A DNA stretch of 64,000 bases, from the NCBI GenBank assembly GCA_025452255.1, contig CP104974.1:1365001-1429000 (forward strand), read 5' to 3'. Of this stretch, positions 1,344 through 34,070 are shown one piece after another (the stretch's first letter is position 1; every line of letters starts with the position of its first letter). The notes beneath the pieces were generated by a model that searched no databases, was not told where the DNA came from, and saw only the letters and a program-made list of their open reading frames with translations. A program made the translations under genes and the position numbers. Source of the DNA: Devosia sp. A8/3-2. GTDB taxonomy: Bacteria; Pseudomonadota; Alphaproteobacteria; Rhizobiales; Devosiaceae.

Positions 1344-2064
1344 TCACCACAGGTAAAAGAAGGCGAAAATGAAGACCCACACCAGATCGACGAAGTGCCA
1401 GTAAAGGCCCATGATTTCGACGATCTCATAGCGGCCCTTGCGGGCGGTGAAGAAGCCAGGGCGGCCGGTGTCGAAGTCGCCGCGCCAGACCTTGCGGGCG
1501 ACGATCAGCAGAAAGATGACGCCGATGCTGACATGGGTGCCGTGAAAGCCGGTGATCATGAAAAGATGGCGCCGAATTGCTGGGCGCCGAAGGGGTTCTC
1601 CCGTGGTCGCACGCCCTCGGAGATCAGCTTGCTCCATTCAAAGGCCTGCATGCCCACGAACATGGCGCCGAAGGCCGCAGTCAACAGCATGAGCACGGCG
1701 GTTTTCCTGCGGTCGCGGCGATAGCCGTAATTGACCGCCATGGCCATGGTGCCGCTCGAAGTGATCAGCACGAAGGTCATGATGGCGATGAGCAGCAGCG
1801 GCATGTGGTGACCGGCGATTTCCAGCGAGAAGACCTCGCTGGCATTGGGCCAGTCACGGTCGTCGACATGCGCGCCGTCATGTAGGAGAGCAGGAAACAG
1901 CCAAAGATGAAGGTGTCGCTGAGCAGGAACACCCACATCATCACCTTGCCCCGGGAGGCAGTCTTGAACGAGCGCTGGTCGGAGGACCAATCCGCAGTAA
2001 TGCCGCGCCAGCCGGGCAGGCGCGCGGCGGGCTCGTGGGATGGTGTCACTGCAGGATCGCTCAT
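1344..2064 (-). CDS. coxP: Cytochrome c oxidase subunit III (second copy, CoxP-like), frame broken
   Basis: Subunit III of a haem-copper oxidase. The N-terminus reads MSDPAVTPSHEPAARLPGW, followed by VMMWVFLLSDTFIFGCFLLSY, a typical subunit III first helix. The C-terminal part has ITGFHGTHVSIG and MGLYWHFVDLVWVFIF, the classic HG-H and YWHFVDxVW motifs. These pieces lie in three frames, with breaks near 1870 and 1560, so two indels must be assumed. The ATG overlaps the stop of the upstream subunit III gene (ATGA). Tandem subunit III genes are the hallmark of the coxMNOP operon of Bradyrhizobium, hence the symbol. Confidence 0.82.
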
Positions 2065-2779
2065 GGCATTCCCCCTTGGGACAGGATCTGGCCGCAAAAG
2101 GCCAGGGAATTCTGCCGGCCGAGCCGGACAGCACCGCCAGCAGCAGCGCCCAGATCAGCAGCATGAACAGCCAATAGGTGGTTGAGAGCTCGACGCTGAG
2201 GCGGATGCGCTCGGGCCGGTCGCGGCGCCTGATGCGCTCGAACGTGCCGGCCGGGGCAAACATGCCGCCGATGACGTGCAGGCCATGGGCTGCGGTCATC
2301 AGGTAGAAAAAGCTGTCGGCGGGACCCGAATTGACGAAATTGCCTGATGCCGCCAGCATGCGCCAGGCGACGAATTGGCCGACGAGGAACAGCAGCGCCA
2401 GTCCGATGGCGGCGAGCACGCCCATGCGCACGCTTGCTGTGTTACCGCGATTGGCGGCGGCGAGCGCCCATTCGAGCGCCAGCCCAGTGCCGACCGGGGT
2501 CAGCGTATTGGGCCAGACGATCCGGGGCAGCGGCATATCCCGCCAGTCCAGCCCTTCCGAGCGCAACAGATAGCCGGTGATCAGTAGGGCAAAGAGCGAG
2601 CCGACAACGGCGAGGAACACGCCCAGCCCCACCTGCGCTGGCGCATAAGGGTTGGGATTGGCCGTGACCCCGCCGGCCTGATCGACCTGCAACCACGGCT
2701 TAACGAAGAGGCCCTGCCGGGACAACCACCAGCCGACAATCAGGGTGAGAATTGCGATGAAACCCAGTATGGCGCTCAT
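2061..2779 (-). CDS. coxO: Cytochrome c oxidase subunit III (first copy, CoxO-like), frame broken near its end
   Basis: About 238 residues with several membrane helices (ILGFIAILTLIVGWWLS, VGLGFLAVVG-like, VLAAIGLALLFLVGQF). The subunit III motif DSFFYLMTAAHGLHVIGG is followed by YWLFMLLIWALLLAVLSG. Near 2110 the frame is lost. Shifting one base restores the ending SLAFCGQILSQGGMP and a stop that overlaps the next ATG as ATGA. Its own ATG overlaps the stop of subunit I in the same way. It belongs to the membrane core of the oxidase beside CoxN and lacks metal ligands, as expected for subunit III. Confidence 0.82.
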
Positions 2780-4547
2780 CCGGGGTCTCCCTTGGTCACC
2801 GGGCCGGGCTCGTTCTGGGGAATGAAATCCTCCTTGGCGCCGGGCACGCTGTAATCATAGGCCCAGCGATAGACATTGGGCAGGTGATCGCCCCAATTGC
2901 CATGCGGCGGCGGGGTGGTGGGCGTCTGCCATTCCAGCGTCGTGGCCCGCCGAGGATTGGGGCCGGACGGCTTGCCGTGGCGCAGGCTCCAGATCAGGTT
3001 GAACACGAAGACCAACTGCGCAGAAGCCGACGATGAAGGCCATGATGGAGATGAAGGCGTTCAGGCTGTGCCCTGACTCCGGCATGATCATGATGCCTTC
3101 GGTCTCGAAATAGCGGCGCGGCAGGCCCATCAGGCCCAGATAGTGCATGGGGAAAAAGATGAGATAGGCGCCCGAGAACGTGACCCAGAAATGGAACTTG
3201 GCCATGGCGTCGCCCAGCATTCGCCCGGTGACCTTGGGATACCAGTGATAGATGGCCCCGAAGATGACCGGGATCGGCGCCACCCCCATCACCATGTGGA
3301 AATGGGCGACCACGAACATGGTATCCGAGAGCGGCACGTCGACCACCACATTGCCCAGGAACAGGCCCGATAGCCCGCCATTGACGAAGGTGACGATGAA
3401 GCCCGGGGCGAACAGCATGGGCGGATTGAAGTGGATGTCACCGCGCCATAGCGTCAACACCCAATTATACACCTTGATGGCCGTCGGCACCGCGATGATC
3501 AGCGTGGTGGTGGCAAAGAAGAACCCGAAATAGGGGTTCATGCCGCTGACATACATATGGTGCGCCCAGACCACGAAGCTGAGCACGCCAATGCCCACAA
3601 TGGCCCAGACCATCATGCGGTAGCCGAAGATATTGCGGCGGGCATGGGTGCTGATCAGGTCCGAGACGATGCCGAAGGCGGGCAGGGCGACGATATAGAC
3701 TTCGGGGTGCCCGAAGAACCAGAACAGGTGCTGGAACAGGATCGGACTGCCCCCGCCATAGCTGAGCTGTTCGCCCATTTCGACCAGTGGTCGGCATGAA
3801 GAAGCTGGTGCCCAGATATTTGTCGAACAGCATCATGACGGCGGCAACGAACAGCGCCAGGAAGGCCAGCAACGCCATGACGGTGGCGACGAAAATGCCC
3901 CAGATGGTGAGGGGCAGGCGCATCAATGTCATGCCGCGCGCCCGCGCCTGCAGCACGGTCACGGTGTAGTTCAGCCCACCCATGGTGAAGCCGATGATGA
4001 AGATAATCAGCGATACCAGCATGAGCATGATGCCCCATTGCTGACTCGGCGTATTGGAGAGAATGGCTCAGGGCGGATAGAGCGTCCAGCCGGCCCCGGT
4101 CGGCCCGCCCGGCACGAAAAAGCTGATCACCAGCAGCATGACCGCGACGAAATAAAGCCAGAAGCTGAGCATATTTGCATAGGGGAACACCATGTCCCGG
4201 GCGCCTACCATCAGCGGGATCAGGTAATTGCCGAAACCGCCGAGAAACAGCGCGGTCAGCAGATACACGACCATGATCATGCCGTGCATGGTGATGATCT
4301 GGTAATAGCGGTCCGCGTCGATGAATTCGACCAGACCGGGAAAACCCAGTTGCAGGCGGATCAGCCAGGACAGCACCAGCGCCACAAAGCCAATGACCAG
4401 CGCCGTCACCGCATATTGCACCGCAATGACCTTGGCATCCTGGGAGAAGACGTATTTCGTCCACCAGCTATGGGCGTGGTAAAGTTCCATCTCCTCGAGT
4501 TCGGCGGGCGGCACCGTGGCGCTCGCTTCATGGGGGATGTCGGCCAT
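2776..4547 (-). CDS. coxN: Cytochrome c oxidase subunit I (CoxN-like), three frame breaks
   Basis: The catalytic subunit reduces O2 to water and pumps protons. Restored length is about 590 residues. Ligands are visible: MHGMIMVVYLL holds a low-spin haem histidine, WFFGHPEVY holds the His-Tyr cross-link and a CuB ligand, WAHHMYVSG holds the two further CuB histidines, and FVVAHFHMVMG holds the axial histidines of both haems. The coding pieces sit in different frames with breaks near 4070, 3785 and 3017. An intact set of ligands spread over three frames argues for sequence error rather than decay. The ATG at 4547 has a strong GAGGAGGA Shine-Dalgarno site. Confidence 0.9.
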
Positions 4548-4618: not shown

Positions 4619-5408
4619 TCAGGAGGACAGGCTGGCAAAAGTCGACTGCGACGTCAGCCAGTCCTGGTATTCTTCGTCAGTGACCACGGTCACGGTGCCG
4701 CGCATATAGGAATGCCCGACGCCGCACAGTTCGGCGCACAGAATTTCGTAGGTGCCGGTCTTGGTCGGGGTGACCCAGAAATAGGTCACCGAGCCGGGGA
4801 TCATGTCCATCTTGGCGCGGAATTCGGGCACGTAGAAATCGTGCAGCACATCGACCGAGCGCAGCAGGAAGCGGACCGGCTTGTCCACCGGGAGGATGAG
4901 TTCGCCCCCTCGATCAGCAGATCATCCTGCCCCGGGGATCATTGGGGCTTACCCCCAGCGTGTTATCGCCGCCGATCAGGCGATTATCGGCGGCGCCCAG
5001 CTTGCCGTCGGCGCCCGGCAGACGAAAGCTCCACAGCCATTGCTGGCCGACCACTTCGATATCGGTGGCGGTGTCGGGAACCTCGACATATTGCGCCCAG
5101 ACGAACAGTCCCGGCGTCAGCATGGCGATGACGCCGCCGGCGGTGAGGGCGGTCAGCCATCCTTCGAGTCGCTTGTTCTCGGGCTCGTAGCTGGCCTTGC
5201 GGCCTTCCTGATGGCGGAAGCGGTAGAGGCAATAGGCCACGAACAGCACTACAGCCGCGAAAACCGCGCCGGTAATGGCGAAGGTCAGCACCATTGTGCT
5301 GTCGATATAGCCCCAATTCGATGCGAGGGGCGAAAACCACCATGGGCTGAAGACATGGAACGCCACCGACGCGACGACGACAACCACCATAATGACGGCA
5401 ACGAACAT
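4619..5408 (-). CDS. coxM: Cytochrome c oxidase subunit II (CoxM-like), frame broken near 4900-4920
   Basis: Subunit II carries the CuA centre that takes electrons from cytochrome c. Two N-terminal hairpin helices (MFVAVIMVVVVVASVAFHVF and AITGAVFAAVVLFVAYCLY) precede the periplasmic cupredoxin domain with VVGQQWLWSFRLPG and the CuA motif CAELCGVGHSYM (C-x3-C-x3-H-x2-M). There is no C-terminal cytochrome c domain. Between NDPRG and GELILPVD, two one-base deletions about 20 bp apart (a missing C after GGGG, and five Gs where six are needed) explain the break. It is the first gene of the operon, with AAGGTGAGGGG before the ATG. Confidence 0.88.
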
Positions 5409-6517: not shown

Positions 6518-6728
6518 CAACGCCGGAGGCGATAAATCGATCCCCGTTGCGGCTCTCCCACCCCACCCGTTCTGCCATGGGCGCCGCTTCCACATTGACC
6601 AATTTGCACGCGTGCAAAGACCGTTTCTTCTTGGAGTCGAATGAGATGAGCGTCGCGCTGGAGCAAAAGATGGAAGCGGCCGATCCGGTATCGGCATGGA
6701 TTTTGGAAGCCGGCGAGGGCCAGCTAAC

Positions 6729-8334
6729 GTGACGCGTTTTGCCGTTATTGCCGACCCGCATTTCCATGATGCCAATTTTACCGGAACCGGCGACCAGCTG
6801 TTTCTGCGCAGCCTGATCGACACGGCGGAATCCACCCGCGTTTTCAACGAAAGCGCGCCGGCCTTCCGTGCCGCGCTGGACCAGATTGCCGCCCGGGGCA
6901 TCAAGACGGTCATCATCGTGGGTGATCTGACCGATGACGGGCAGGCCTATGCGGTGGATGGCGCTGTGGCTTTGCTTGAGAGCTACGCGGCCGGGTTCGG
7001 CATGCGCTTTTTCATGACAATGGGCAATCACGACCTGTTCTGCCCGCGCCGGGCGGCATCAATCCAAACGCATCCTGCGGGAAGATGGGCGCTATGATCT
7101 GGTGACCAGCGACGGCAAGGCAAGGGATACCGGCGCCGCCAGCCATGTGGTGACCGAAGCGATGTTCGCCGGCGGTTACGACAATGTGGTGCCGGCACTA
7201 GGTCGGCTGGGCTTCATGCGCCACCCCAAGGATATTCATTGGGAGAGCCCCTTCGGCAGCGACGATGCGCTGGCAAGCCGGCTTTATGCGGTGCGTTCGG
7301 AAGATGGCAGCCAGAGCGTGGACATGGTCGACGCTTCCTATCTGGCGGAGCCGGTGCCGGGCCTGTGGCTGCTCTCGCTCGACGCTAATATTTATCGGCC
7401 CGAGGGCGACGGTTTTGCCGATTGTTCGGAGGCGGGCTGGAACGCTGCCCTCGAGCACAAATCTTACCTGCTGGCCCGGACCGCCGATGTCGTGGCGCGG
7501 GCGCGGCAATTGGGCAAGCAATTGGTGGCGTTCTCGCACTATCCGGTGGTCGACCCACTCGATGGTACGCTAGAGGAGGAACTGACCCTGTTGGGCAAGA
7601 CCACCTTCGCGCGCCGCATGCCGGTCCCGGCCGTGTCAGAGGCGTTCCTCCCGGCGGGGGTGAAGCTGCATTTCAGCGGCCATTGGCATGTCAATGACAC
7701 GGCGCGCTTTGCCGATGATGGCACCTATGTGCTCAATCTGGCAGTGCCGGCGCCGGTGGCATTTCCGCCAGCCTACAAAATCTGCGAACTGTCGGCCGAA
7801 ACATTGCATGTCGACACGGTGATGCTGCGCGATGTGGCGGGCTATGATGTGGGATTTATCCGCTATGCCGCCGAATGCGCGGTGACAGGCTATGATGATG
7901 AGGGGCTGCGTGCCGCGGGTGATCATTTCGGCTTCATCAGCCGGCATCTCGATCTCTTGGTACGCGACCGCTATCTGCCGCGCGAATGGCCAGAAGGCCT
8001 GCGCGGCATGGTGGAAAGCGTCATGCTTGGCGCCGTGGCCGGGCTGGCCGGCGGCGCACTAGCGCCGGACATAGCGGAATTGCCGTTCATGGCGGCGGTG
8101 GTGGATTGGTACAAGCTGCGCAAGGCCGGCGATCTGGCGTTGGGCGATATCAGGGCTGCCCGGCTTGCGGCCTATGCCGACTCGGCCGCACTGTTCGCCG
8201 TGCGCGACTGGCCGGAAGGGTCGACCGAGCGGCAGCTGGGCCGGTTTTTCGGCATGATGCTGCGCTATGGCGCGGGCCTGCCGGCCACGCGCTTCCAGGT
8301 GGATCTCGCCAGCGGAACGGTCACCCCGGATTAA
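6729..8334 (+). CDS. Metallophosphoesterase of about 530 residues, frame broken near 7060
   Basis: A calcineurin-like phosphoesterase. All metal-binding motifs are present in order: ADPHFHD (D-x-H), GDLTDDG, GNHD, FSHYP and GHWHVN. The GTG at 6729 was chosen because the first beta strand (TRFAVIADPHF) follows immediately. The first 110 residues lie in one frame and the remainder in another, with the break near 7060 between GNHDLF and KRILREDG. The last 200 or so residues form an extra C-terminal domain not recognised here. The stop codon shares TTAA with the stop of the convergent ATPase gene. The substrate is unknown. Confidence 0.82.
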
Positions 8335-9413
8335 AGCCGTTTACCGGTGGCGCTGTCAAAATAGGACGCGTTGGCGAGGTCGAGGCCCAGCGTCACGCCG
8401 TCGCCGACCGCACCGGCAAAATCGCCCGGTATGCGCAGGCTGAAGACGCCGCTATCGGCCTCGCACCACAGGATCGTGTCGGGCCCCATGGCCTCGATCA
8501 CGCTGACCTTGCCAGCAAAGCCCGGCAGGCCAGAAGCCGTGCCGAGCACGATCTGTTCGGGCCTGCAACCCAGCGATGACCGCGCGTTCCTCAGCGACTT
8601 GCGCCGCGGACTGGGGCAGTTCTGAACGTGCCCAGTTCCGAGCGAAAGAATGTCTTGTCCGCCTTGGGTACCAGCGTGCCCGAGATCAGATTCATGGCCG
8701 GCGAGCCGATGAAGCCGGCGACGAACAGATTGGCGGGCCGGTGATAGATTTCGCGCGGGCTGGCCAATTGCTGGATGACGCCATCGCGCATGATGGCGAT
8801 ACGGTCGGCCGTGGTCATGGCCTCTACCCGGTCATGGGTTACGTAGATCATCGTGCTCCCCAGTTCCTGGTGCAGTTTCTTGATTTCGACGCGCAGCTCG
8901 GTGCGCAGTTTGGCGTCGAGATTGGAAAGGGGTTCGTCGAAGAGGAAAATATCGACGTCCCGCACTAAAGCCCGCCCGATCGCCACGCGCTGTCGCTGGC
9001 CGCCAGACAGCGCGGACGGGCGGCGCTGCAGATAGGGCTCGAGCTGCAGGATCGCCGCGGTGCGCTTGACCCGGCGGGCGATCTCGTCCTTGGCCATGCC
9101 GGCCACCTGCAGGCCGAAGCTGAGGTTCTTTTCAACATTCATATTGGGGTAGAGCGCATAGGACTGGAACACCATGCCGATGCCCCTGTCCTTGGGATCG
9201 GCCCGGGTGACATTGCGCTCCCCGATCCAGATTTCGCCGTCCGAGAGATCGGACAAGCCCTGCAATGGCATTGAGCAGGGTGGATTTGCCGCAGCCCGAG
9301 GGACCCAGCAGCACGAGGAATTCGCCAGCGGCGATCTCGAGATCGAAATCCTTGACCACGGCGGTGCTGCCATAGCCGATAGCGACGGAACGCAGGGAAA
9401 CGGGAACGGACAT
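8331..9413 (-). CDS. Sugar ABC transporter ATP-binding protein (UgpC/MalK type), frame broken
   Basis: The ATPase of a carbohydrate importer, about 360 residues when restored. It shows Walker [11 protein letters not shown]-loop [11 protein letters not shown], signature LSGGQRQR, Walker B IFLFDEP and the switch YVTHD. A C-terminal TOBE-type regulatory domain begins with GFIGSPAMN. Frame breaks lie near 9265, just after Walker A, and near 8550-8610, inside the C-terminal domain. It is the last gene of the minus-strand sugar operon, five bases after the second permease, so it probably energises that importer. Confidence 0.87.
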
Positions 9414-9418
9414 GGCAG

Positions 9419-10310
9419 CTAACCTTTTACGGAACCGGCAGTGATGCCGCGGACGAACCAGCGGCCGGAGACGAAGTAAGCAACGAGCGGGACCAAGGCG
9501 GTCAGTACGGTGGCGGCCATGTGGACATTGTACTGCGCTGGCCGGTCGTGGTGGTGACGATATTGTTGAGCTGCACGGTCATGGGGAGATTGTCGCGGCC
9601 GGCAAAGACCAGAGCCGAGTAGAAAATCGTTCCAGATGCCGGTCATCTGCATCAGCCCGGCAACCACCAGCATGGGCAGCGACAGCGGCAGCATCAGCGC
9701 GAAGAATATGCGCCAGAAGCCGGCCCCATCGACGCGCCGCCTTGAACAGCTCCACCGGAATGGCAGCGTAATAATTGCGGAACAGCAGCGTGGTCAGTGG
9801 CAGGCCGAACACGACATGCACCAGCACGATGCCGGCCAGCGAGTTGTAGAGCCCGAGGGCCGCGGTGGCGCGCACCATGGGAAACAGGAAGATTTGCAGC
9901 GGAATGAAGCCGCCAATGGTGATAGCGGCAAACAGCAGCTTGGAGCCCGGCGGCTTCCAGAAGGAAAGGGCATAGCCAGTGACCGCGCCCAGCAGCACCG
10001 ACAGGATCGTGGCGGGCACGGTGATCTTGACCGAATTCCAGAAACCGACGCTCACCCCGTTGCAATTGATCCCGGCACAGGCGCTCGACCGGGCCTTGAT
10101 CCAGAATGACCAGTCGAGCATGTGCGGCAGGGCAAAGATCTGCGCCGAGCGGATTTCGCCCATGCTCTTGAACGAAGTGACGATCATCACATAGGCCGGC
10201 AGCAGGAAGAACAGCGCGGCAATGAGCAGAAAGGCATAAAGGCCGATGCGCGCAATGGTCAGCTGTTGCGGGTGCTGGCCGCGGGCGGCGGCGGGAAAGG
10301 GGTCGCGCAT
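9419..10310 (-). CDS. Sugar ABC transporter permease (MalG type), frame broken
   Basis: Inner-membrane permease with N-terminal helix [19 protein letters not shown] followed by SFKSMGEI, the typical loop of MalG-type subunits. Further helices and the EAA-loop region ([11 protein letters not shown], frame lost just after) follow, and it ends [16 protein letters not shown], the conserved C-terminus of this family. Pieces lie in several frames, with breaks near 9725, 9605 and 9545. The ATG at 10310 overlaps the stop of the upstream permease by one base. It pairs with the MalF-type subunit to form the channel. Confidence 0.83.
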
Positions 10311-11253
10311 CAGAGCCTTCCGTTCTGGCGGCGCGTCCAGATATCGCGCGCATAAAGAATGGGGATGGTGACGGCCATCACGGTGAACAGCATCACGGTG
10401 GCGCCGGCCGTGGCCGAGCCCAGTCCCGGCGGGCGAACAGGCTATCCATGATGAACTTGGCCGGCACTTCGGTGGATTGGCCGGGGCCGCCATTGGTCAG
10501 CGCCACTACGAGGTCAAAGGTGCGCACCGCGCCCATGGTCAGCAGCATGAAGGCGGTGGCCACCGAAGGCCCCAGCTGCGGCAGCACGATGGTGAGATAG
10601 GTGCGCCACATCGGGATGCCTTCGATGCGGGTGGCGCGCCACAGATCGGCGTCGATCCCGCGCAGCCCGGCCAGCATGAGCACCATGACCAGCCCCGCGC
10701 TTTGCCAGATGCCGGCCAATGCCACCGCATAGATGGCCATGTCGGAGCGCGTGGTCCAATCGAAGGTGAACCAACCCAGCCCTGCGGCACGCGCGGTGGC
10801 TCGGATGCCGATTTCGGGGTTCATCAGCCATTGCCACATCAGGCCGGTGACGATGAAGGACAGCGCATAGGGATAGAGAAACATGGTGCGCCAGGCGCTT
10901 TCAAAGCGCACGCGGCGGTCGATGGCGATGGCGAGCAGCAGGCCGACCAGCATGGCGCCCAGCACGTAAACCACGCCGAAGATCAGCACGTTCTCGATGG
11001 AATTGGACCAGCGCGCGGTGCCGAACAGGCGCTGATATTGCGACAGCCCGGCAAATTCATTGGAGGGCAGCATGCGCGATTTGGTCAGCGAGATCTGCAC
11101 CGTCCACACGGTGGTGCCGAGATAGACCAGCAGGATTATGAGCCGGGCCGGCGTCAGCGCCGCCATGGCGGCCACTGGCAAGCGAAGCCTGCCAGTGGCC
11201 CTCGATCGGGCGGCGGTTGACGCAATGGAACGCGCGCCCGATTGATCAGCCAT
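10310..11253 (-). CDS. Sugar ABC transporter permease (MalF type), frame broken near 10430
   Basis: Six-helix permease of about 314 residues. It has the first helix ARLIILLVYLGTTVW, WRTMFLYPYALSF, the EAA loop LWRATRIEGIPMWRTY and the family motif ALTNGGPGQST. Near 10430 the run CGCCGGGACTGG lacks one G; restoring it gives LFARRGLGSATAGATVM and a normal ending RRQNGRL. The start overlaps the stop of the binding-protein gene by 8 bp, so translation is probably coupled. Confidence 0.85.
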
Positions 11254-12470
11254 TGGCGAAAGCAGCCTTGTATTGCTCGATGAAGGCCTCGCTGGTCATC
11301 GCCGGATCGGCAAAGAAAGCGCCCACGGCATCCTTGAAGCCGCCATTGATGGCAGGCGAAAGCGTCATGGCGGCGTCGGGAACGATCTTGTCCTGCTTGA
11401 CCAGTTCGACAGCCTTTTGTGCGCAGGCATCGAGGCCGGACGTGTCCACGTCGGTGCGGATCGGCAGCGAGCCCTTGAGCGCCGAGAAATCGGCCTGCAC
11501 CTTGGGATCGAGCACGGTTTCGGCCAGCAGCGCCTGCGCCTTGTCCTCATCGGCATTGCCGGTCTTGGGGAAGGTAAAGGCATCGGCCAAAAAGATCAGC
11601 GAATCCGTGCCCGGGGTGAGGGCGCAGCCATAGTCGACGCCGGGTTTTTCGCCGGCCGTGGTGAATTCGCCCTTGATGAAATCGGACAGCAATTGCACGC
11701 CGGCCTCGTCCCGGATCACCATGGCGGTGGCGTCATTCCAGTTGCGGCCGGCGGCGCCGGCATCGACATAGTCGCGCATGCGGCCAAAGACATTGACCGC
11801 CTCGGCAAATTCGGGCGTGTCGATGACCGACAGGTCGCTGTCTTTGTAAAGCTTAGTGAAGGCCTCGGCGCCAATGGTGGAGAGCACCACGGCATGGAAG
11901 ACGATGCCTTCCTGCCGAGATTGGCCGCCCCGGGCGATCGGCACCGAGCCCGCCGCCTTGATCTTGTCCATGGCGGCAAAAAAATTCGTCCCAGCTGGTC
12001 GGGGCTTTGGTAATGCCGGCCTTTTCGAAGACCGGCATGGAATAGAACATCCAGCTGCCCGCATGCATGCCGGTGGGGGCCATATAGACCTTGCCATCCA
12101 CGGTGATGGCGTCAAGCACGACACGGGGCACCACGCCATCGGGCACGGCAGTGTGGAAGGCGGTGTCGATGTCGTTCATCAGGCCCCGGGCGATGAGTTC
12201 GGTGACTTCAGGCCCGGCAACGGCGGTCTTGGCGGTGGGCGGGTCACCGGCGAGCAGGCGGCTGATATAGGCCGCATTGGCGCTTTCAAAGCCGGCCACG
12301 GACCAATCGACCCATTTGCCGCCACGGGCGGTAAAGGCATCGGAGATGACCTTGACCGCGGCGGCTTCGCCACCCGAAGTCCAGGAGTGGGCGACTTCCG
12401 CGGTGAGGTCCTGCGCCCGGGCGGTCGAAACCAGCAGTAGAGCGGTGAGACTAGGCAGGAGTAGACGCAT
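11246..12470 (-). CDS. Extracellular sugar-binding protein (family 1), frame broken near 11985
   Basis: Periplasmic binding protein of about 408 residues. A short signal peptide (MRLLLPSLTALLLVSTARAQ) precedes the mature start DLTAEVAHSWTSGGEAAA, the usual opening of family-1 sugar-binding proteins. The C-terminal half includes NWNDATAMVIRDEAG and FIKGEFTTAGEKPG, matching the hinge region of these proteins. The frame changes at a run of six A residues near 11985. It lies upstream of both permeases and downstream of the TIM-barrel gene in one operon. The ligand is unknown; the neighbours suggest a sugar or polyol. Confidence 0.85.
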
Positions 12471-12518
12471 TGGGGGTAGTCCTTCCTTGCACAGAGCGAG
12501 CGGGCGGGCCGTCGCGCT

Positions 12519-13471
12519 TTAGCCGATGATGGGGAGCAGAGTGGTCTCGACGAATTGCCGCGAGGCGATCATTTCGGACAGGGGATCGGCGGCGGCATCC
12601 AGTTCGAGAACCGCCCAGCCGGAAATATTGTGGTCGCGATACATGCGCGCCTGGGCCGGCCAATCCACGCGCCCGGCGCCCGGGCGGCAGAAATAGGCTC
12701 GGTGGCTGTCATGGATGCTGGCATCAATGGGAATGTCGAAGGGCATGACGCCGGTGGCGTCTTTCCAATGCGCCACGACCAGCCGGTCGATATGGCGGGT
12801 AGTGACCGCCACCGGATCGGCACCCGAGCCCAGCAGGTGGGCGGCATCGGGGCAGAAGCCGACATAGAGCGGATCGGTCAGCAGCATGAAGAGGTCGACA
12901 TCGTGGGACGTGCAGAACACCGAATGGGCTTCGGTATGGAGGGCGAGTTTGACCCCATTGCGCAGCGTCAGTGCGCCCAGCTCGTTGATTACTTCGGCGA
13001 TGCGCTGGGCATAGGGCAGGTCGACAAATAGCGGCGGCTCGGCGTCGCGGGTGCGGCGCATGGGCAGGCCCACCACCATGGCATCGCCACCGCAGGCGGC
13101 AATCACTTCGGCATAGGCTTTGACGAGATCGAACAGCTTGGAGCGGACCGCCGGATCGGCAATGTCGCTGCCATGTTCGAGATCGGCAAAAAGCCGCTGG
13201 CCAGCGTCAGCCCGCGTTGCTCCATGGCCCGGGAAAACCCGGCTACGGAACCGAAAGTCTTGATCGCATGCTGCCAGTTGAACGGGGAAAAGGTGGGCTC
13301 GATGCCGCGCAAGCCCGCCGCAGCGACAGTGTCGAGAATCTTGTTCCAGAACAATTCTGGTTTTGATTCGGCAAGAGAAAGGATGTCGCCGTGATTTTCA
13401 ACACCCCAGAATTCGGGGTGGAAGAAAGTTACAAGATCAACTGCCATGTCTATTTTGGTGTGCAGCGTCAC
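12519..13471 (-). CDS. Sugar phosphate isomerase/epimerase-like TIM barrel protein, frame broken near 13180
   Basis: About 317 residues of an AP-endonuclease-2 type (xylose isomerase-like) barrel. Visible strand ends include MAVDLVTFFHPEFWG, GLRGIEPTFSPFNW, VKLALHTEAHSVF, GFCPDAAHLLGSG, VVAHWKDATG and WAVLELD, with the metal-binding E, D, H and E residues expected of this fold. The GTG at 13471 has AGGAG six bases upstream, the best site available. It is the first gene of the operon and faces LacI. Such genes often sit in inositol or rare-sugar loci as isomerases, epimerases or dehydratases; the exact reaction cannot be told. Confidence 0.8.
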
Positions 13472-13540
13472 GACGTGCTCCTACTCGACGCACGCAAAAA
13501 TTTTGCGGCGTTTTGTTTCATCGATCTGAATGTTTTTGGA

Positions 13541-13558
13541 TTGGCAATCGATTGCCAA
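13541..13558. promoter_or_regulatory. LacI-type operator (perfect 18 bp palindrome)
   Basis: TTGGCAATCGATTGCCAA is a perfect palindrome with the central CG typical of LacI-family operators. It sits 70 bp upstream of the TIM-barrel GTG and 122 bp upstream of LacI. It is the best candidate for the binding site of the adjacent LacI protein. Confidence 0.7.
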
Positions 13559-13581
13559 CGCGATATTGATTGCACATGACG

Positions 13582-13613
13582 TTTTGGTGCGCAAGCGAAA
13601 AAGTGCACCAAAA
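13582..13613. promoter_or_regulatory. Second inverted repeat in the LacI/TIM-barrel promoter region
   Basis: The arms TTTTGGTGC and GCACCAAAA are exact inverse copies separated by 14 bases, 68 bp upstream of the LacI start. It differs in sequence from the 18 bp palindrome, so it may bind another regulator, or form a hairpin in the LacI leader. Function is unknown. Confidence 0.5.
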
Positions 13614-13680
13614 TTAGGCTGTGTTACGTGTTTGACGGCACACGATTTTTATCGGCAAGAAGGGCAGAGGAGGGGAAGCG

Positions 13681-14791
13681 ATGACCAAAAAACCAGCGCC
13701 TGACCGGATATCTGCGCCGTCCGTTGCCGATGTTGCGCGCGAGGCCGGGGTGGCGCCATCCACGGTCAGCCGCGCGCTGACCATGCCGGGACGAATCGCC
13801 GAGCCGACCCGCCTCAAGGTGGAGGCTGCGGCACGCAAGCTGGGCTATATCGTCAACCAGACCGCGCGCAATCTGCGCATCGGGCAGACCCGCACGATCA
13901 TGATCGTGCTGCCCGACGAGCTTTATATCGGCGCCTCCCAGACCGTGCTCGAAGTGCTGCGCTCGGCGGCAGCGGCATTGACGGCGCGGGGCTATTCGCT
14001 GGTCATCGCCAATGTTTCCCGCGAAGCCCAGACCGATGAGCATATTCTGGCGCTGGCCTTTGGCGGCACGATATCGGGCGTGCTGCTGATGGCCAGCCCC
14101 GTTCCCAGCATCGGGGATCGCAACCTGTTGCAAGCCGGCCTGCCGCTGGTCTCGCTGCATTTCGACATGAGCGCGCAGAACGTACCCAGCGTGATCAGCA
14201 ATGACAGCGCGGCGATCGGGGAGGCCGTCGAGGCTTTGGCCGGCCCGGGGCACAGCCGGTTTCTCTACATTCGCGGCCGGCCGGACAATTACCACGACGT
14301 GGAACGCCTCAAGGGCGTGCGCCGGCCCTGCAACGCAGCGGCCTCGTACCGGACGACCTCAACACGATGCAGGGCGATTTCAGCTTCAGCGGCGGCATCA
14401 GCGCCGGGCAGCTTTATCTCTCCCCGGCGCCGCAGGAGCGCCCGACCGCCGTGGTCTGCGCCAATGACGATACCGCCATCGGCTTTATCAAGACCGTTCT
14501 CGATGGCGGGCTGAGCGTGCCGGGCGATGTCTCGGTGGTCGGCTTCGACGGCGCGGCAGTGGGTGCATTCATGACGCCGAGCCTCTCCACAGTCCAGCAA
14601 TCGACCGCCGAAATGGGGCGGCGCGCCGTCGATCTGGTGATCGACATGGCCTTGGGGAGCTCGCCAGCCCACCCCTGCGGATCGAAGTGCCCTGCCAATT
14701 GGTGCTGCGCCAGAGCGTGCGCGCTGCTGCCCGATCCATCCTAATTCCACCGCGCGTCCAAGCCGGGCGCTTCACCACAGAAAGCCGATAG
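13681..14791 (+). CDS. LacI family transcriptional regulator, frame broken
   Basis: About 370 residues. The HTH is clear at residues 14-60 (SVADVAREAGVAPSTVSRAL, the hinge KLGYIVNQTARNLR), followed by a periplasmic-binding-like sensor domain with VVCANDDTAIGF and VVGFDGAAVG. Frame breaks lie near 14325 and 14660-14680. The frame restored at the end runs to a TAG that abuts the ATG of the next gene (TAGATG). GAGGGGAAG precedes the ATG. It probably represses the divergent ABC/TIM-barrel operon and the downstream oxidoreductase, via the palindrome at 13541. Confidence 0.87.
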
Positions 14792-16426
14792 ATGTCTAAA
14801 GCCCAGTTCGACGCAATGGTTATCGGCTCTGGCGCGTCGGGCTCGTTTGCCGTCCAGGAATTGACGGCCCGGGGCCTCAAGGTCGTGTTGCTGGAAGCGG
14901 GGCCGGAAATCGGTCCCAAGGATTTCGAGGTCAAGAGCAAGATCCGGCAATCGGACATCAATCTGTGGCAACGCGCCAAGGCGACGCTGAGCGGGCAGGG
15001 GGTGCAGGCCCGGGCGGCCTATTTCGACATGCGCATGCGCAATCTCTTCGTCAACGATCGCCAGCACCCCTATACGACCCCGCCCGATGCCCCCTTTGTG
15101 TGGATCCGCGGCCGCCGGGCGGGCGGGCGCACCCATACATTCGGGCGGGCGCTGCTGCGCTGGACGGACGATGATTTCAAAACGCGCACGCGGACCGGGC
15201 GTGGCGAGGATTGGCCAATTTCCTATGCGGAGCTCGTGCCCTATTACGAAGAGGTGGAGCGCTGCCTCGAAATCTACGGCCGCGACGACAATGTCCCGAC
15301 CCAGCCCGACAGCGTCTATACTCATGAGGCGCGGCTGACCGAGGCCGAGCAGCTGTTCAAGGCCGATCTTGAAGGCAAGTGGCCGGATCGGCGCGTGATC
15401 ACCGGCGCTATATCGGGCCCGAACCGACGCGCGTATGTGCGCCCGCTGCGCGAAGCCATGTCCAGCGGCAATCTCGATATTCGCTACAATGCCATTGCCC
15501 ATCGGGTGCTCACCGACGAGCAGAGCGGCCGCGCCGTCGGCGCCGAAATCATCGACCGGCAGACCGGGCAGCGCAGCACCATCACCGCCTCGGCCGTGGT
15601 GCTCTGCGCCTCTCCCGTCGAGAGCATCCGCCTGATGCTCAATTCAGCGTCGGCCCGCCATCCCAACGGGCTGGGCAATAGTTCGGGCACGCTGGGCCGC
15701 TATTTCATGGATCAATTGCCCTGCATCGCCACCGGGTCCTATCCCGGGGTCAAGGGCGCCGCGAGTGCCGATACGGCGCCGCCTGACCCTTTCTATGGCC
15801 CATCCGGGGGCATTTTCGTGCCCCGTTTCGTCGGCAAGGACGGTACGGCGGCGAGCGAGTTCAACTTCCGTGGCTCCATCGGCCGCTACCCGACCGGCTC
15901 CTCGGGCAATGCGCGGCTGTCATTTTTCGGCTTCGGCGCCATGCAGCCCGCGGCCGAAAACCGCGTCACCATCGATCCCGGGCGCAAGGACGCATGGGGT
16001 ATCGCCGTGCCGCATATCCGCTGCAAGATGGGTCCCGCCGACGAGGCTACACTGACCAAGCAATTGGATACGCTGACCGAAATTGTCGAGGAAACCGGCG
16101 GAGAACTCGAATTCATCGGCTCGCCCCCGGGGCTGGTCGAAAAGGGCCGCGGCGCCTATCCCGATGCCGATCCGCTGAGCCGTTTCTTGTTCCGCCGCAT
16201 GTTCACCAAGACCATGGTCATGGGCGCGGCGATCCATGAAGCGGGCGGCGCGCGGATGGGTCGCTCGCCCGACCAATCGGTGCTCAATGGCGCCAACCAG
16301 AGCTGGGACGTGCCCAATCTCTTCGTCACCGATGCCAGCGCCTTTGCCAGTAGCGGGGTGGCGGGCACGACGCTGACCATCATGGCCCTGACTGTACGCG
16401 CCTGCCGCCACCGGCTCAGGAAATGA
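14792..16426 (+). CDS. GMC family FAD-dependent oxidoreductase
   Basis: This intact 544-residue flavoprotein starts with the Rossmann motif VIGSGASGSFAVQEL (GxGxxG at about residues 12-17) followed by the acidic LLEAGPE. It carries RGRRAGGRTHTFGRALLRW, the FAD-covering loop of GMC enzymes. The C-terminal GARMGRSPDQSV and NLFVTDASAFASSGVAGTTLTIMALTVRA complete the FAD-binding region. GMC enzymes oxidise alcohols, sugars or polyols. Its start directly follows the LacI stop, so it is likely co-transcribed with the regulator and oxidises the imported compound. No signal peptide is visible, so it is probably cytoplasmic. Confidence 0.88.
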   Translation: MSKAQFDAMVIGSGASGSFAVQELTARGLKVVLLEAGPEIGPKDFEVKSKIRQSDINLWQRAKATLSGQGVQARAAYFDMRMRNLFVNDRQHPYTTPPDAPFVWIRGRRAGGRTHTFGRALLRWTDDDFKTRTRTGRGEDWPISYAELVPYYEEVERCLEIYGRDDNVPTQPDSVYTHEARLTEAEQLFKADLEGKWPDRRVITGAISGPNRRAYVRPLREAMSSGNLDIRYNAIAHRVLTDEQSGRAVGAEIIDRQTGQRSTITASAVVLCASPVESIRLMLNSASARHPNGLGNSSGTLGRYFMDQLPCIATGSYPGVKGAASADTAPPDPFYGPSGGIFVPRFVGKDGTAASEFNFRGSIGRYPTGSSGNARLSFFGFGAMQPAAENRVTIDPGRKDAWGIAVPHIRCKMGPADEATLTKQLDTLTEIVEETGGELEFIGSPPGLVEKGRGAYPDADPLSRFLFRRMFTKTMVMGAAIHEAGGARMGRSPDQSVLNGANQSWDVPNLFVTDASAFASSGVAGTTLTIMALTVRACRHRLRK

Positions 16427-22288: not shown

Positions 22289-23170
22289 TTATGCCATTTG
22301 CACTCGATTCCGTATCCGCCATTGCGAGGGAGATACGCCGCTCGCCTTGCTGAACTGGGCAGAAAAATGGAAGGCGGAATTGTAGCCCAGATAGCCGGCG
22401 ATGGCCTTTACCGATCGGTCGGAGTTACGCAGCAGTTCGCAGGCGCGGCGGATACGGACTTCGGACTGATATTGTTTCAACGACATTCCGGTATGGGTGC
22501 GGAACAGCCTACGCAGGGAGGAGTAGCTGATGCCAAGCTCCAGAGCCAAGCCTTCCGGGGATGGTTGCTTGCCACTCGTATCCGCCAATTTGCGGCGGAC
22601 CTGTTCGACAAGGCGGTCCCGGCCGCGCTCGGCCGGCGCGCGACTGACACAGCAAGGCCAAGAGCTGCAACCCCGGGGTCGAGAGAGTCGGCTGGTGGAG
22701 CAGGGCGTCTTCCCGAGCAAGCCTGTGCACAGTGTTAAAGATTTCGGCGGCATCTGGCCCCGCGCTCCAGATCGGCGCATTGACGAGGTTCAGGCCCATT
22801 CCCATGACTTGATCAAAAGCGGTTCCACGGCATTCGATCCAGTTCTCCACCCAGCCCGTCATAGGGTCCGGCGAGAACCGGTGCCAGATACCCGGAAACA
22901 GCAGGAAGACGTCACCGGCCTTCACCTTGTGAATGTGTTCGGGGTAGGGCGCAGACTGCAGTTGGCCGCGCCCCTCGCTGATCAGTGCAAATTGGTAAGC
23001 CTGCAGCGTGCGCCCTTTTTCCCAGACGAAATGGTGGTCATCGGGATGCCGGACCGGCGGATAGGGGAGCCCGGCAGAATGCGCGTATAGCCCGTGGAAA
23101 CGGCCGTGCATCCCCAAGCTTCGCATAGGATGTTGTCGGGCAAATAGGTGAAGTAATCAGCTTCGGGCAT
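22289..23170 (-). CDS. AraC family transcriptional regulator, two compensating frame breaks
   Basis: About 293 residues. The N-terminal cupin-type sensor has PDDHHFVWEKGRTLQAYQF, SAPYPEHIHKVKAGDVFLLFPGIWHRFSPD and GWVENWIECRG. The C-terminal double HTH reads LALELGISYSSLRRLFRTHTGMSLKQY and RSVKAIAGYLGYNSAFHFSAQFSKASGVSPSQW. The N-terminal 23 residues (MPEADYFTYLPDN) and the HTH share one frame class while the sensor is shifted, with breaks near 23100 and 22625. It faces the isomerase/ABC operon and most likely activates it on sugar binding. Confidence 0.87.
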
Positions 23171-23240
23171 TGATCATTTTTTGCATGCACCAGATCACTA
23201 ATCGAAAGTACTAGCGGTTTTTAAAGCACCTATCGAGTGT

Positions 23241-23260
23241 TAAGGTCAATCATAAGGTCA
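23241..23260. promoter_or_regulatory. Tandem direct repeat upstream of the isomerase operon
   Basis: TAAGGTCA occurs twice, at 23241-23248 and 23253-23260, spaced by 12 bp start to start, in the AraC/isomerase gap. AraC regulators bind direct repeats, so this may be an activator half-site pair. Only two copies are seen. Confidence 0.4.
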
Positions 23261-23326
23261 CTTTTTGAATGGCCACGCGCTATGCGCAGCCCCGGCGACA
23301 AGTCCGCGGCGATGGGGAGGAACGGC

Positions 23327-24778
23327 ATGGAACTCGGCGTAGCCGTGGATGCGGCAACTCGGCCGCTCAAGATCGGCTTGTTCGGCACCGGTCTCGACGC
23401 CTATTGGGCTCAGTTCGAGGGCTTGCAGGCACGGCTCGAGGGTTATGTCGAGACTGTGGCCGCCAAACTGGCGCGGCTCGGTGTCGAAATCGTCAATCTT
23501 GGCCTTGTGGACACGCCGCAAAAGGCCGTCGAGGCCAGGCACCAGTTCAGATCGTTCGATGTCGATCTGATCTTTCTCTATGTGACCACCTATGCCCTGT
23601 CCTCCACCGTGCTACCTGCCGTGCGCCGTGCAGGTGTGCCGGTGGTCATCCTCAATCTGCAGCCGGAGCGCGCCATCGATTACGCGGCGTTCAACCGGCT
23701 CAAAAACCGCACGCAGATGACCGGCGAATGGCTGGCCTATTGCGCGGCCTGCCCGGTGCCAGAAATCGCCAATGTCTTCATGCGCTCCGGCATTCCCACC
23801 CATCAGATCACCGGCATTCTCCGGGGCGACCCACATGTCGATGCGGAGATCGAAGACTGGATAGAGGCCGCCCGCGTCGCCCACGTCATGGCCCATAATC
23901 GGCTGGGCGTGATGGGCCATTATTACAATGGCATGCTCGATATCTATTCCGATCTGACGGCCCAGAGCGCCGCGTTCGGCACCATGGTCGAATTCATGGA
24001 AATGGACGAGCTCGCTTCAATCCGCCGGGCGCTAGGCGAGGCCGAAGTGGACGCAATGCTTGCCCGGATCGAAGCCGAGTTCGACATTGAGCCCGAATGC
24101 GACCCCGCCGAATTGCGGCGCGCTGCCGCCACCGCTGCCGCGCTTGCCACCCCGGTTACGAGGCATGATCTGGGCTCCATGGCCTATTTTTACGTGTCCG
24201 TGCCGGGCCATGAACATGAGGACCTGATCTCCTCGGTCATTCTGGGCTGCTCGCTTTTGACCGCATCAGGCGTCCCCGTTGCCGGCGAATACGAGATCAA
24301 GAACGCCCGTGCCATGAAGATCATGGACGCCTTTGGCACGGGCGGATCGTTCACCGAATATTACGCCATCGATTATGAGGACGATGTCGTGCTCATGGGG
24401 CATGACGGGCCGGGCCATACGAAAATTGCGCAAGGCAAGACCAAGGTCCGTCCGCTAGAAGTCTATCACGGCAAGGTGGGCAAGGGCGTCTCGGTCGAAA
24501 TGTCGGTGCGGCATGGGCCGGTGACGCTGCTGTCCGTCATCGAGCGGGCCGGCAAGGTCGAGTTGCTGGTTGCCGAGGGCGAGTCCGTTCCCGGCCCCAT
24601 TCTCGAGATCGGCAATACCAATAGCCGCTACCGCTTCGCCAACGGCGCCCGCGCCTTTACCGAAGCACGGAATGCGGCCGGTCCCGCCCATCACTGCGCC
24701 GTCGGCGTCGGCCACATATCAGGACGATTGGAAAAGCTTGCCGGGTTGCTCGACCTCAAAATGACGCGGGTTGCCTGA
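23327..24778 (+). CDS. L-fucose/L-arabinose isomerase family protein
   Basis: 483 residues, intact. The fold and conserved stretches match the arabinose/fucose isomerase family: KIGLFGTGLDAYWAQF at the start, a DVDLIFLYVTTYALSSTVLPA strand, GHYYNGMLDIYSDLT, GEYEIKNARAMKIMDAFGTGG, EYYAIDYEDDVVLMGHDGPGHT and a C-terminal HHCAVGVGH. The acidic and histidine residues in these motifs are the expected Mn-binding and base residues. GGGGAGGA just before the ATG at 23327 selects this start over an in-frame codon 90 bp upstream. The downstream ribose-type importer suggests the enzyme isomerises an imported aldose; which one is unclear. Confidence 0.82.
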   Translation: MELGVAVDAATRPLKIGLFGTGLDAYWAQFEGLQARLEGYVETVAAKLARLGVEIVNLGLVDTPQKAVEARHQFRSFDVDLIFLYVTTYALSSTVLPAVRRAGVPVVILNLQPERAIDYAAFNRLKNRTQMTGEWLAYCAACPVPEIANVFMRSGIPTHQITGILRGDPHVDAEIEDWIEAARVAHVMAHNRLGVMGHYYNGMLDIYSDLTAQSAAFGTMVEFMEMDELASIRRALGEAEVDAMLARIEAEFDIEPECDPAELRRAAATAAALATPVTRHDLGSMAYFYVSVPGHEHEDLISSVILGCSLLTASGVPVAGEYEIKNARAMKIMDAFGTGGSFTEYYAIDYEDDVVLMGHDGPGHTKIAQGKTKVRPLEVYHGKVGKGVSVEMSVRHGPVTLLSVIERAGKVELLVAEGESVPGPILEIGNTNSRYRFANGARAFTEARNAAGPAHHCAVGVGHISGRLEKLAGLLDLKMTRVA

Positions 24779-24810
24779 GCCGGATAGATCAACAAGGAGG
24801 AGGAACGAAA

Positions 24811-25840
24811 ATGAACTATGGCAGGAGGATAAACCCATTGGTGGTGGCACTGGGGCTGGCATCGCTGATGCTGCCCATGCTCCCTGCCGCGGCGCAGGAT
24901 GCCGGCATCAAGCCACCCGCCGAAGTGGCTGCTTTCGGCGCGATCGAGCCGGGGATTGGCGAGGGGTTGACCATCGGCTTCACCCAGCTTGGCACGGGCG
25001 TGCCGTTCACCGAAGCGCTGCAGCGCGGCATGGAAGCCGGGGCCGCAGTGGCGGGCGTCAAGCTCATCACCTGCGATTCCAAGTTTGACGCCGCCGCCGC
25101 GCTCGATTGCGCCCGCCAGTTCCGCACGCAGAATGTGGATGGCCTCGTGACCTTCCGAGCCGATGCGGCCGCCGCAGCCAATATCTGTGCCGAAGGCCCG
25201 CAAGTGCCCGTCATCGCCATCGATATCGAACAGCAGCCCTGCCAGACCGCCTTTGTCGGCGCGGCCAATGCCTATGCCGGCGAGATCGTCGGCTACGCTC
25301 TCGGCCAGTATTTCAAGGCAAATTTCGACTGCAAATATGACGCCCGGGTATCGCTGGAATCGCTGGCGGTTGGCGTTGTGAATGACCTTCGCATGGGCGG
25401 CATGCGCGATGGCTTCTGCCCGAGTCTGTGGCGAAGTGCAAAACCTGCGCATCATCGATACCGGCGCTGGCGGGCAGGCCGATACTGCCCAGCGGCAGGT
25501 GACCGATACGCTGACCGCTCTTCCCGGTGCACAGCGCGTCATCACCGTCGGCATCAATGAAGACGTCATCACCGGCGCCACGGCCGCGGCCCGTTCGCAG
25601 AACCGCACCGACGCCCTCTATATCGGCGCGCAGAACTTTGATCCGGGCAATTGCCAGATCTGGACGGCTCCCCATTTCATCGCAACGGCCGCCTATTTCC
25701 CGGAAAAATATGCCGAACTGATCATCCCGAACCCGGTCAAGGCGATCAAGGGCGAGAAAATTGCAGCGCAGATTCTGGTGCCGCATGAAGTGATCACCAA
25801 GGACAATATGGTGCAGCTCTATCCCGAGACGAAGTGCTGA
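24811..25840 (+). CDS. Periplasmic sugar-binding protein (RbsB/XylF-like), frame broken near 25430
   Basis: About 343 residues. A signal peptide (VVALGLASLMLPMLPAAAQ) leads to a type-I periplasmic binding fold: TIGFTQLGTGVPFTEALQRGMEAGA, DGLVTFRADAAAAANIC, VPVIAIDIEQQPCQTAFVGAANAYAGEIVGYALGQY, then in another frame RVITVGINEDVITGATAAARSQ and DALYIGAQNFDPGNC. It is preceded by GGAGGAGG. Two cysteine-rich spots are unusual for the family. Its stop overlaps the ATPase start (TGATG). Confidence 0.84.
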
Positions 25841-27340: not shown

Positions 27341-28324
27341 CCAAGCTCCAGTCACCATGGCCGGCGCCGATAGCGCCCTGATTGGCAAGCGCATGACACG
27401 CAAGATGAAGACGCCGGAATGGGGAGCCTTGTTGCTTTTCCTCCTCGCCGAAATCGTCTTCTTCACTTTCAACTCGCCCTATTTCCTCACCGGCCCAACA
27501 GGGTGAACATCATAACGGCGCTGTCGATCACCGGCATTCTGGCCGCAGGCGGCACCATTCTGCTCATTGCCGGGCAGTTCGACCTCTCCGTAGGCAGCGG
27601 CACAGCTTTCGTTGCGCTGATGTTTGCCATCGCCGCACAAAGCACGGGCATCATTCCCGCCACCGGTGTCGCCCTGCTGGTCGGTGCGGGCATCGGCATT
27701 CTCAACGGCTTTCTGGTGACCGTCGTAGGGGTCAATGCCCTCATCACCACCCCGGGAACCCCGGCCATTTTCCGTGGGCTCACGCTCTCCATCGGCGGTG
27801 CCAGCAGCGTGCGGATAAATGGCTTTGACTGGGCCATCGCCCGGCCGCTCTTTGACATTCCCATGTCGGCAATCCTCTTTCTGTGCATCGCCATCATCGT
27901 GGCCATCGTGCTGGCCCGCACCGTTTTCGGGCGCACCATCTATGCCATCGGCGCCAACGAGAATGCGGCACGCCTCGTTGGCATCCGCACCAAGAAGACG
28001 CTGTTTCTCGGTTTCGTCATCTCCGGTCTCTGCATGGCACTGACGGGCCCGGTCAGCGCGTCGCAGCTCGGCTCGACCTCGGGCACGACCGGCATGGGGC
28101 TCGAGCTTGCAGTGGTCACTGCCATCATTCTGGGTGGCACCTCGCTCAAGGGCGGCACGGGCAGCATGTTCGGCACAATACTGGGCCTGCTCATTGTCGG
28201 CGTGCTCAACAATGGCATGACGCTGATGAACATCAATTCGACCCGGCAGCAGGTGGCGGCAGGCACCCTCCTGATTCTGGCCGTTTCCTTCGACCAGATC
28301 CGCCAGCGTTTCATTCGTAGCTAG
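27333..28324 (+). CDS. Sugar ABC transporter permease (RbsC type), frame broken near 27500
   Basis: About 330 residues. The N-terminus MPNQAPVTMAG and first helix WGALLLFLLAEIVFFTF lie in one frame. The remainder starts with IITALSITGILAAGGTILLIAGQFDLSVGS, the hallmark of RbsC permeases, and continues with LARTVFGRTIYAIGANENAARLVGI and AVVTAIILGGTSLKGGTGS, which holds the coupling loop. It overlaps the ATPase stop by 8 bp. It forms a homodimeric channel with the two-domain ATPase and the RbsB-like protein. Confidence 0.86.
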
Positions 28325-28334
28325 GAACGTCACC

Positions 28335-30086: not shown

Positions 30087-30155
30087 ATACCGGCGAAAAC
30101 TGCTGCGGCAGCGGCCGCGCGCGCTGCGGAGACGGCTCGGTCCGGGCGTGGCAAT

Positions 30156-31208: not shown

Positions 31209-31292
31209 GATCGTGTTTTACCGGCGCAAGCATGACCCATTTATGACCAGCCGCGTGCCGCCAATACTGTCGTGGAGTGTCGCAATCCCGTC

Positions 31293-32972: not shown

Positions 32973-34059
<1,087 letters not shown>

Positions 34060-34070
34060 CAATATGGTCC

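Follow-up and report, generated by a model that had tools for sequence, protein, structure and literature searches.

Introduction

Modified bases are a described source of error in long-read bacterial assemblies. In the parts of Wick et al. (2019, PMC6591954) drawn on here, default ONT basecallers failed at the CCAGG and CCTGG sites of a Dcm-methylated K. pneumoniae with an error of about 0.4%, and the Dcm motif made up approximately 70% of the consensus errors, followed by homopolymers. The Modpolish study (PMC10687267), in the sections used here, describes Listeria ONT genomes spoiled by modified motifs, which were recovered from the corrected errors, and four Listeria strains that carry a methylase-bearing defence system. 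According to the portion of the Kastor paper considered (PMC12007338), uncorrected long-read indels lead to false frameshifted pseudogenes in annotation pipelines.

Here we analysed a 64-kb stretch of DNA, hereafter the window (bases 1,365,001-1,429,000 of contig 1), from Devosia sp. A8/3-2, whose genome of 4.55 Mb is assembled in two contigs. As in the native DNA of the Dcm-methylated bacterium in Wick et al. (PMC6591954), the errors concentrate in CCAGG/CCTGG; to the error of about 0.4% there correspond about 3 affected sites per kb in A8/3-2, a value inferred from motif densities. For K. pneumoniae and others, the sections of that paper used here rely on reads and a reference, whereas the Devosia case is diagnosed from an assembly and its relatives. 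Devosia resembles the Listeria genomes, as the Modpolish sections present them, in being a low-quality, putatively ONT assembly whose mismatches gather at a strain-specific motif. However, the motifs of Listeria were GCAGC and GCTGG, the errors were mismatches, and reads were used, with Illumina and amplified DNA checks (PMC10687267), whereas in Devosia the motif is CCWGG, indels occur too, and the assembly was analysed without reads. As in the part of Kastor used here, breaks were found by comparison with related genomes, but a motif is the main signature in Devosia, and the main text of that source, in the portion considered, contains no word starting with "motif" (PMC12007338). Among the matches listed by a limited literature search, there was no paper on errors of the A8/3-2 genome and no title on a methylome read from a finished assembly alone.

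We conclude that uncorrected long-read errors, most likely nanopore errors and including miscalls of methylated CCWGG, very probably explain both the broken genes and the loss of CCWGG in this assembly. The artefact belongs to a known kind.

Results

The coxM gene is split between two frames

The minus-strand coxM gene (window 4622-5408) is a single 263-aa CuA subunit split by two one-base gaps (Table 1). The original prediction held that two one-base deletions break this gene and asked for protein lengths to be compared with close relatives. Both points were borne out with the related Devosia genome G006, in which coxM is one uninterrupted 263-aa ORF, whereas the window copy is split into halves in frames -2 and -3. 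The gaps had been placed within 20 bp near 4895-4925; the DNA alignment to G006 puts them 27 bp apart, at about 4907 and 4934. Of the two contexts proposed for them, the run of six G is present at the first gap, as read in Devosia sp. LC5. The second gap falls within CCCCGGGG of the window, a shape that could be left by the common CCTGG error class. Functional motifs had been said to be kept on both sides of the breaks, which is correct for coxM, the one gene examined; its 3' part contains CAELCGVGHSYM, which we take to hold CuA ligands.

Table 1. Features of the window and their coordinates (positions within the window).
Feature	Position	Strand	Evidence
coxM (CuA subunit II), 5' part, one frame	4926..5408	-	tblastn with the intact G006 protein: residues 20-161, frame -2, 96.5% identity; ORF 4914-5408, 164 aa; start 5408 from the ORF list
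coxM, 3' part, other frame, contains CAELCGVGHSYM	4622..4912	-	tblastn with the intact G006 protein: residues 167-263, frame -3, 97.9% identity
One-base gaps in coxM relative to G006	4907..4934	.	DNA alignment; about 4907 and about 4934
Cytochrome oxidase (cox) subunit I gene, breaks at about 3022 and 3790	2782..4547	-	two ORFs, each matching PF00115
cox subunit III-type gene, breaks at about 1562 and 1850	1347..2097	-	G006 ORF intact, 251 aa; name taken from the plasmid annotation of a similar operon
Eight G006 protein matches	6696..16411	.	seven with frame changes
Block resembling an ABC-transporter block of Rhizobium plasmids	8.7-11.0 kb
Further genes with Devosia relatives	22623..51662	.

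Window positions 1000-5500 match G006 over their full length with 91% identity. The CoxM proteins of G006 and LC5 are 98% identical; thus, the window belongs to Devosia. As a control, LC5 was aligned with G006 over 5.4 kb, which resulted in gaps of 1, 1, 1, 2, 4, 5, 6, and 51 bases, versus thirteen one-base gaps and five longer ones in the alignment of LC5 with the window over 5.0 kb.

Frame breaks within the window

Three methods, DNA alignment, tblastn, and a coding-frame HMM, were combined, and their calls were merged as clusters of 40 bp. The union comprises 53 break sites, of which 28 were supported by at least two methods; the single-method sites came from the HMM (10), tblastn (11), and the DNA alignment (4). 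A few of the HMM-only sites may be false, since the HMM also calls some in control Devosia genomes. The original prediction put the damage at 50 or more breaks in roughly 35 genes. Its number of breaks was a fair estimate; tblastn alone finds frame changes in 27 of 49 genes.

The tblastn search, from which rows of a locus of A8/3-2 itself were excluded, revealed 37 frame changes in these 27 genes, the 49 being the window genes with a protein match in other genomes. With non-G006 proteins only, a frame change was found in 21 of 39 window genes versus 1 of 16 in a G006 stretch, which is a small control. The DNA alignment to G006 covers 16.4 kb of the window and contains 24 frame-breaking indels, which affect 11 of the 14 fully aligned ORFs. 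The HMM had one half of the G006 sample as its training set. Across the 64-kb window, it called 34 frame changes that lack a stop/start junction, compared with 3 in an 80-kb stretch of G006 (p 1.9e-9). Additionally, it called 11 in 200 kb of G006 outside the training set and 0, 2, 3, 0, 4, 0, and 0 in 20 kb each of seven other Devosia genomes. The HMM and tblastn agree on breaks at 25417, 27054, 27142, 33407, 35915, 39958, 42157, 43999, 44767, 49467, 50255, and 51079. The part from 55.8 to 64 kb is free of called frame breaks in all three methods, though CCWGG is scarce there (one site in the last 8 kb). The 64-kb window yielded no Rfam match above the gathering score and no tRNA.

Five positions had been put forward as bases missing from short homopolymers. 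The breaks given at 33405 and 35045 were located at 33410 and 35040, and the one at 45440 was called at 45438 by the HMM only. A break does lie near 10430 (at 10424); however, it is beside a CCTGG of the relative instead of in a homopolymer. The position 18390 has no break call from the DNA alignment, tblastn, or the HMM, and the alignment of a Rhizobium NmrA protein (318 aa) ends before the ORF does, at codon 254 of 280, approximately position 18413.

The arrangement of the window relative to G006 is as follows. At window 6477-6563, G006 carries about 7.6 kb extra between two syntenic blocks, and synteny with the same G006 region stops at window 16447. Window 31790-40600 matches a different place in G006 (C2:299-308 kb) and also the genome G052. 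The segment 58795-59345 has 97% identical copies on contig 2 of A8/3-2, at 307120-307673 and, partially, at 206891-207285. It is probably a mobile element, and its same-genome copies could act as an internal error control.

Breaks elsewhere in the genome

The completeness of the A8/3-2 genome is estimated at 84%; of 61 genomes sampled from the genus, 55 reach a completeness of 90% or more with no more than 5% contamination. From a second chromosomal sample (C1:2.30-2.70 Mb), 209.5 kb aligned to G006 with 90.9% identity. There, 259 frame-breaking indels were found in 148 ORFs covering 158.9 kb, and 101 of the ORFs were affected; the ORFs sampled were mechanically the longest, and some look like antisense shadows, so that 148 should not be taken as a number of genes. 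Long ORFs (500 aa or more) occur at 5.5 per 100 kb in A8/3-2 versus 13.0 in G006. In seven further chromosomal stretches of 20 kb, the HMM called 12-17 frame changes each, whereas four 20-kb stretches of contig 2, in which CCWGG is equally scarce, had 3, 2, 6, and 9.

Among the genes named by NCBIfam, frame-breaking indels occur in rpoB (5), dnaE (6), parE (6), and an RNase E/G gene (3), all of which are open frames in G006; the split of rpoB was also recovered by a Pfam search. These four genes are essential. Genuine decay, that is, a young genome full of pseudogenes, would account for the many frames that are open in pieces only, but the breaks are not confined to dispensable genes, and a cell with all four of these genes broken is not credible. 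Nor do the broken genes display relaxed selection. The substitutions at codon positions 1, 2, and 3 amount to 6.2, 3.1, and 16.4% in broken ORFs versus 5.3, 2.9, and 16.1% in unbroken ORFs, and selection seems to act on both groups in much the same way. The indels are moreover tied to sequence context, as described below. We therefore assign a practically negligible probability to gene decay. The original view that the breaks are read errors and not decay is supported by comparable break rates at distant places in the genome, by the essential genes affected, and by the intact ORFs of the relative.

Two further comparisons were attempted. One-base indels number 374 in 217.5 kb under ORFs versus 63 in 7.8 kb outside (1.72 versus 8.11 per kb), but this density was dropped as a discriminator because true evolutionary indels are mixed with errors outside genes. 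The rRNA family RF00177, considered as a frame-free control, matched none of five Devosia genomes, including A8/3-2, and was found in only 9 of 14 control genomes; it was thus uninformative.

Sequence context of the indels

The 268 short frame-breaking indels comprise 126 one-base insertions, 114 one-base deletions, and 28 two-base events. A CCWGG lies at most 8 bases away in G006 at 55 of them (11.5 expected, p 5e-22), whereas a CCSGG lies within this distance at 10. The CCWGG share is probably underestimated, since about one third of the CCSGG pentamers are not shared by the two species. For the other 213 coding indels, the relative has no CCWGG in the vicinity, and causes other than CCWGG clearly act as well.

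Ordinary long-read errors, mostly in homopolymers and unlinked to methylation, were the cause favored by the original prediction, in which many of the breaks were a base missing from a short homopolymer. Deletions are indeed enriched in runs of at least 4 in the relative (13 of 114, 3.5% expected, p 1.9e-4), and the dinucleotide repeats GCGCGC and CGCGCG carry indels at 35 of 274 and 28 of 204 sites. However, the 13 deletions are a minority, and insertions are equally common (126 versus 114), so that the homopolymer description does not hold for most breaks. As the sole cause, such errors are very unlikely for a further reason, the fate of CCWGG sites described in the next section.

Of the 101 one-base insertions located away from CCWGG, 48 separate the two bases of a CG (11.2 expected). 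When T or A was inserted into CG, 43 of 66 cases were at TTCG, mostly read as TTCTG, which corresponds to 7.9 per 1000 of all fetched G006 TTCG sites, the unaligned ones included. No longer motif was found around the TTC|G insertions. Indels were also located near GANTC, presumably the CcrM-type motif, at 19 of 290 sites (p 9e-5 against an assumed 2.4%), with 17 of 195 sites for GAWTC. The GANTC indels perhaps reflect adenine methylation of the CcrM kind. CCWGG is the clearest motif tied to indels, and it points to methylated native DNA sequenced on nanopore.

Loss of CCWGG from the assembly

The window contains 37 CCWGG sites (0.58 per kb; per 8 kb: 10, 6, 5, 3, 7, 2, 3, and 1). The corresponding density in 80 kb of G006 is 4.28 per kb, and CCSGG in the window itself reaches 5.53 per kb. 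Of 763 CCWGG sites of G006, just 54 were kept in A8/3-2, 632 were substituted, and 77 had an indel, whereas 472 of 714 CCSGG sites were kept and 15 had an indel (p 4e-136 and 5e-11 for the kept and indel comparisons). Most changes at CCWGG are thus substitutions, which are invisible to a frame-break search. In a count of every 4- to 6-mer in the aligned DNA, CCWGG was the most depleted 5-mer (110 versus 763 in G006), and each of the eight most depleted 6-mers contains it. Among the other palindromes of 4 or 5 bases that have 40 or more sites, none was kept below 38%, and no strong depletion was found among bipartite motifs (best z about -3, counts of at most 29).

Written as CCAGG, the outcomes at 736 sites were CCGGG (212), CCGAG (135), unchanged (56), CCAGA (40), CCAAG (36), and CCGTG (34). 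Neither the survival of so few CCWGG sites, when no other palindrome falls as low, nor the two-base swap of CCAGG to CCGAG is explained by homopolymer errors; miscalls at methylated CCWGG would account for both.

A different possibility is that the strain truly lost CCWGG, by restriction avoidance or methyl-cytosine mutation, and that only the indels are errors. Real avoidance of a motif would favor silent changes, and deamination of methyl-cytosine would turn CCAGG into CTAGG. The results show that the loss does not depend on codon position: CCWGG was kept at 7 of 63, 12 of 124, and 47 of 408 sites at the three codon offsets (11.1, 9.7, and 11.5%, p 0.85), whereas the retention of CCSGG depends on the offset (p 1e-5). 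Trp codons were kept in 35 of 100 cases inside CCTGG versus 518 of 567 elsewhere, with 58 of the 100 read as Arg CGG, and CAG codons were kept in 63 of 186 cases inside CCAGG versus 1321 of 1554 elsewhere. CTAGG was the outcome at only 4 of the 736 sites. Because the loss is blind to codon position and includes common two-base swaps, selection or deamination does not account for it. The clustering of the indels themselves at CCWGG also speaks against a true loss.

The depletion extends over the genome. In all of eleven further 20-kb stretches of A8/3-2, CCWGG occurs at 0.15-0.60 per kb, compared with 1.95-4.60 per kb in nine stretches taken from eight other Devosia genomes. When the fetched loci of 3 kb or longer are pooled, the density is 0.40 per kb in 45 A8/3-2 loci (717 kb, some overlapping) versus 3.51 in 217 loci elsewhere (1.78 Mb). 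The pooled CCWGG:CCSGG ratio is 0.08 in A8/3-2 versus 0.96 in other genomes; this ratio overstates the loss, as miscalls create CCSGG, whereas the per-kb densities do not. Only one locus of the other genomes, 3.4 kb around the dcm gene of genome G004, has a ratio below 0.2. The CCWGG sites of LC5 were kept at 19 of 27 in G006 versus 6 of 25 in the window, and its CCSGG sites at 9 of 13 and 6 of 12.

A Dcm-like methylase beside vsr

Contig 2 (515 kb) carries, on the minus strand at 148,819-149,816, a cytosine-5 methylase in two frames, adjoined by vsr (TIGR00632, 125.7 bits, cut-off 97.85). The methylase fragments score 204.1 and 132.9 bits against PRK10458 (cut-off 710), and 157.8 and 50.1 bits against TIGR00675, the first over and the second under the cut-off of 100.65. 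Both pieces have their best PDB matches in 3lx6 and 3me5, which we take to be the Shigella Dcm; the second piece covers chain residues 204-320 of 3lx6. The locus resembles the Dcm and Vsr system of Escherichia/Shigella in the adjacency of the two genes and in these structural matches. It differs in that the methylase is broken in two frames and lies on a 515-kb contig of an alphaproteobacterium, and in that its specificity is a prediction. The A8/3-2 methylase would be active and, judging by similarity, specific for CCWGG. Dcm-like N-termini are also found in the genomes G020 and G051.

G004 harbors an intact pair of methylase (446 aa) and Vsr (213 aa). The G004 methylase shares 88% identity with the second A8/3-2 piece, has the same best PDB matches, and scores 464 bits against PRK10458 (cut-off 710) and 316.5 against TIGR00675 (cut-off 100.65). 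Elsewhere in G004, at a distance from the pair, four 20-kb stretches contain 3.8, 4.35, 4.25, and 5.35 CCWGG per kb, so the methylase gene alone does not deplete CCWGG. A true loss would fit the presence of a Dcm-like methylase and Vsr in A8/3-2 and the 1.05 CCWGG per kb in the 20-kb surroundings of the G004 dcm gene (C1:575000-594999), a low density that is perhaps a property of a mobile island with real avoidance there. Given the normal density of G004 elsewhere, together with the codon-blind loss and the rarity of CTAGG, we regard a true loss as extremely unlikely. On the reading of uncorrected sequencing errors, what depletes CCWGG is the sequencing of methylated DNA.

Discussion

The proposed course of events begins with native DNA, which would have been sequenced into a long-read, most likely nanopore-only, assembly without correction by accurate reads; nanopore is the platform suggested by the error signature. 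The Dcm-like cytosine-5 methylase encoded beside vsr would have methylated CCWGG, and the modified sites would distort the current. A basecaller untrained on methylated sites would then turn CCAGG/CCTGG into CCGGG, CCGAG, CCGTG, or a one-base indel. The other indels would arise from GCGCGC repeats, TTC|G contexts, GANTC sites, and homopolymers. As a result, indels would split genes such as coxM, and substitutions would silently alter amino acids.

Some observations weigh against this explanation: the 213 indels that have no nearby CCWGG, the methylase that is itself fragmented and below the PRK10458 cut-off, the fewer HMM breaks on contig 2 and the absence of called breaks between 55.8 and 64 kb, in both of which CCWGG is scarce, and the low CCWGG density around the methylase gene of G004, the control genome.

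We consider it likely that the errors are a readable imprint of the methylome, in which the missing 5-mer names CCWGG and leads to the methylase and vsr pair with no need of reads. The recovery of motifs from corrected errors, using reads, is already published (PMC10687267, in the sections used here). The fresh point is that an assembly and its relatives, without reads, reveal the probable methylation motif of a strain. The indels near GANTC and the TTC|G insertions may be two weaker imprints, left by further modifications. If this is true, screening public genomes for motifs that are missing relative to their relatives, with a codon-blind loss, could recover methylation motifs, and the same screen could flag artefact-ridden species representatives. 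The codon-offset and motif-loss tests are read-free and applicable to other assemblies, whereas a frame check alone catches the smaller part of the errors.

By extrapolation, the 4.55 Mb would contain about 14,000 wrong CCWGG sites (0.40 versus 3.51 per kb). Additionally, there would be at most about 6,500-7,300 coding indels (1.63-1.82 per kb of ORF), true species differences included, when 88% of the genome is taken as coding from the ORF cover of G006. The A8/3-2 genome represents its species in the genome set searched. Its apparent pseudogenes are most likely artefacts, and the broken genes would be intact in the cell. The completeness of 84%, the apparent pseudogenes, and many of the amino-acid differences of this strain are not to be taken as biology.
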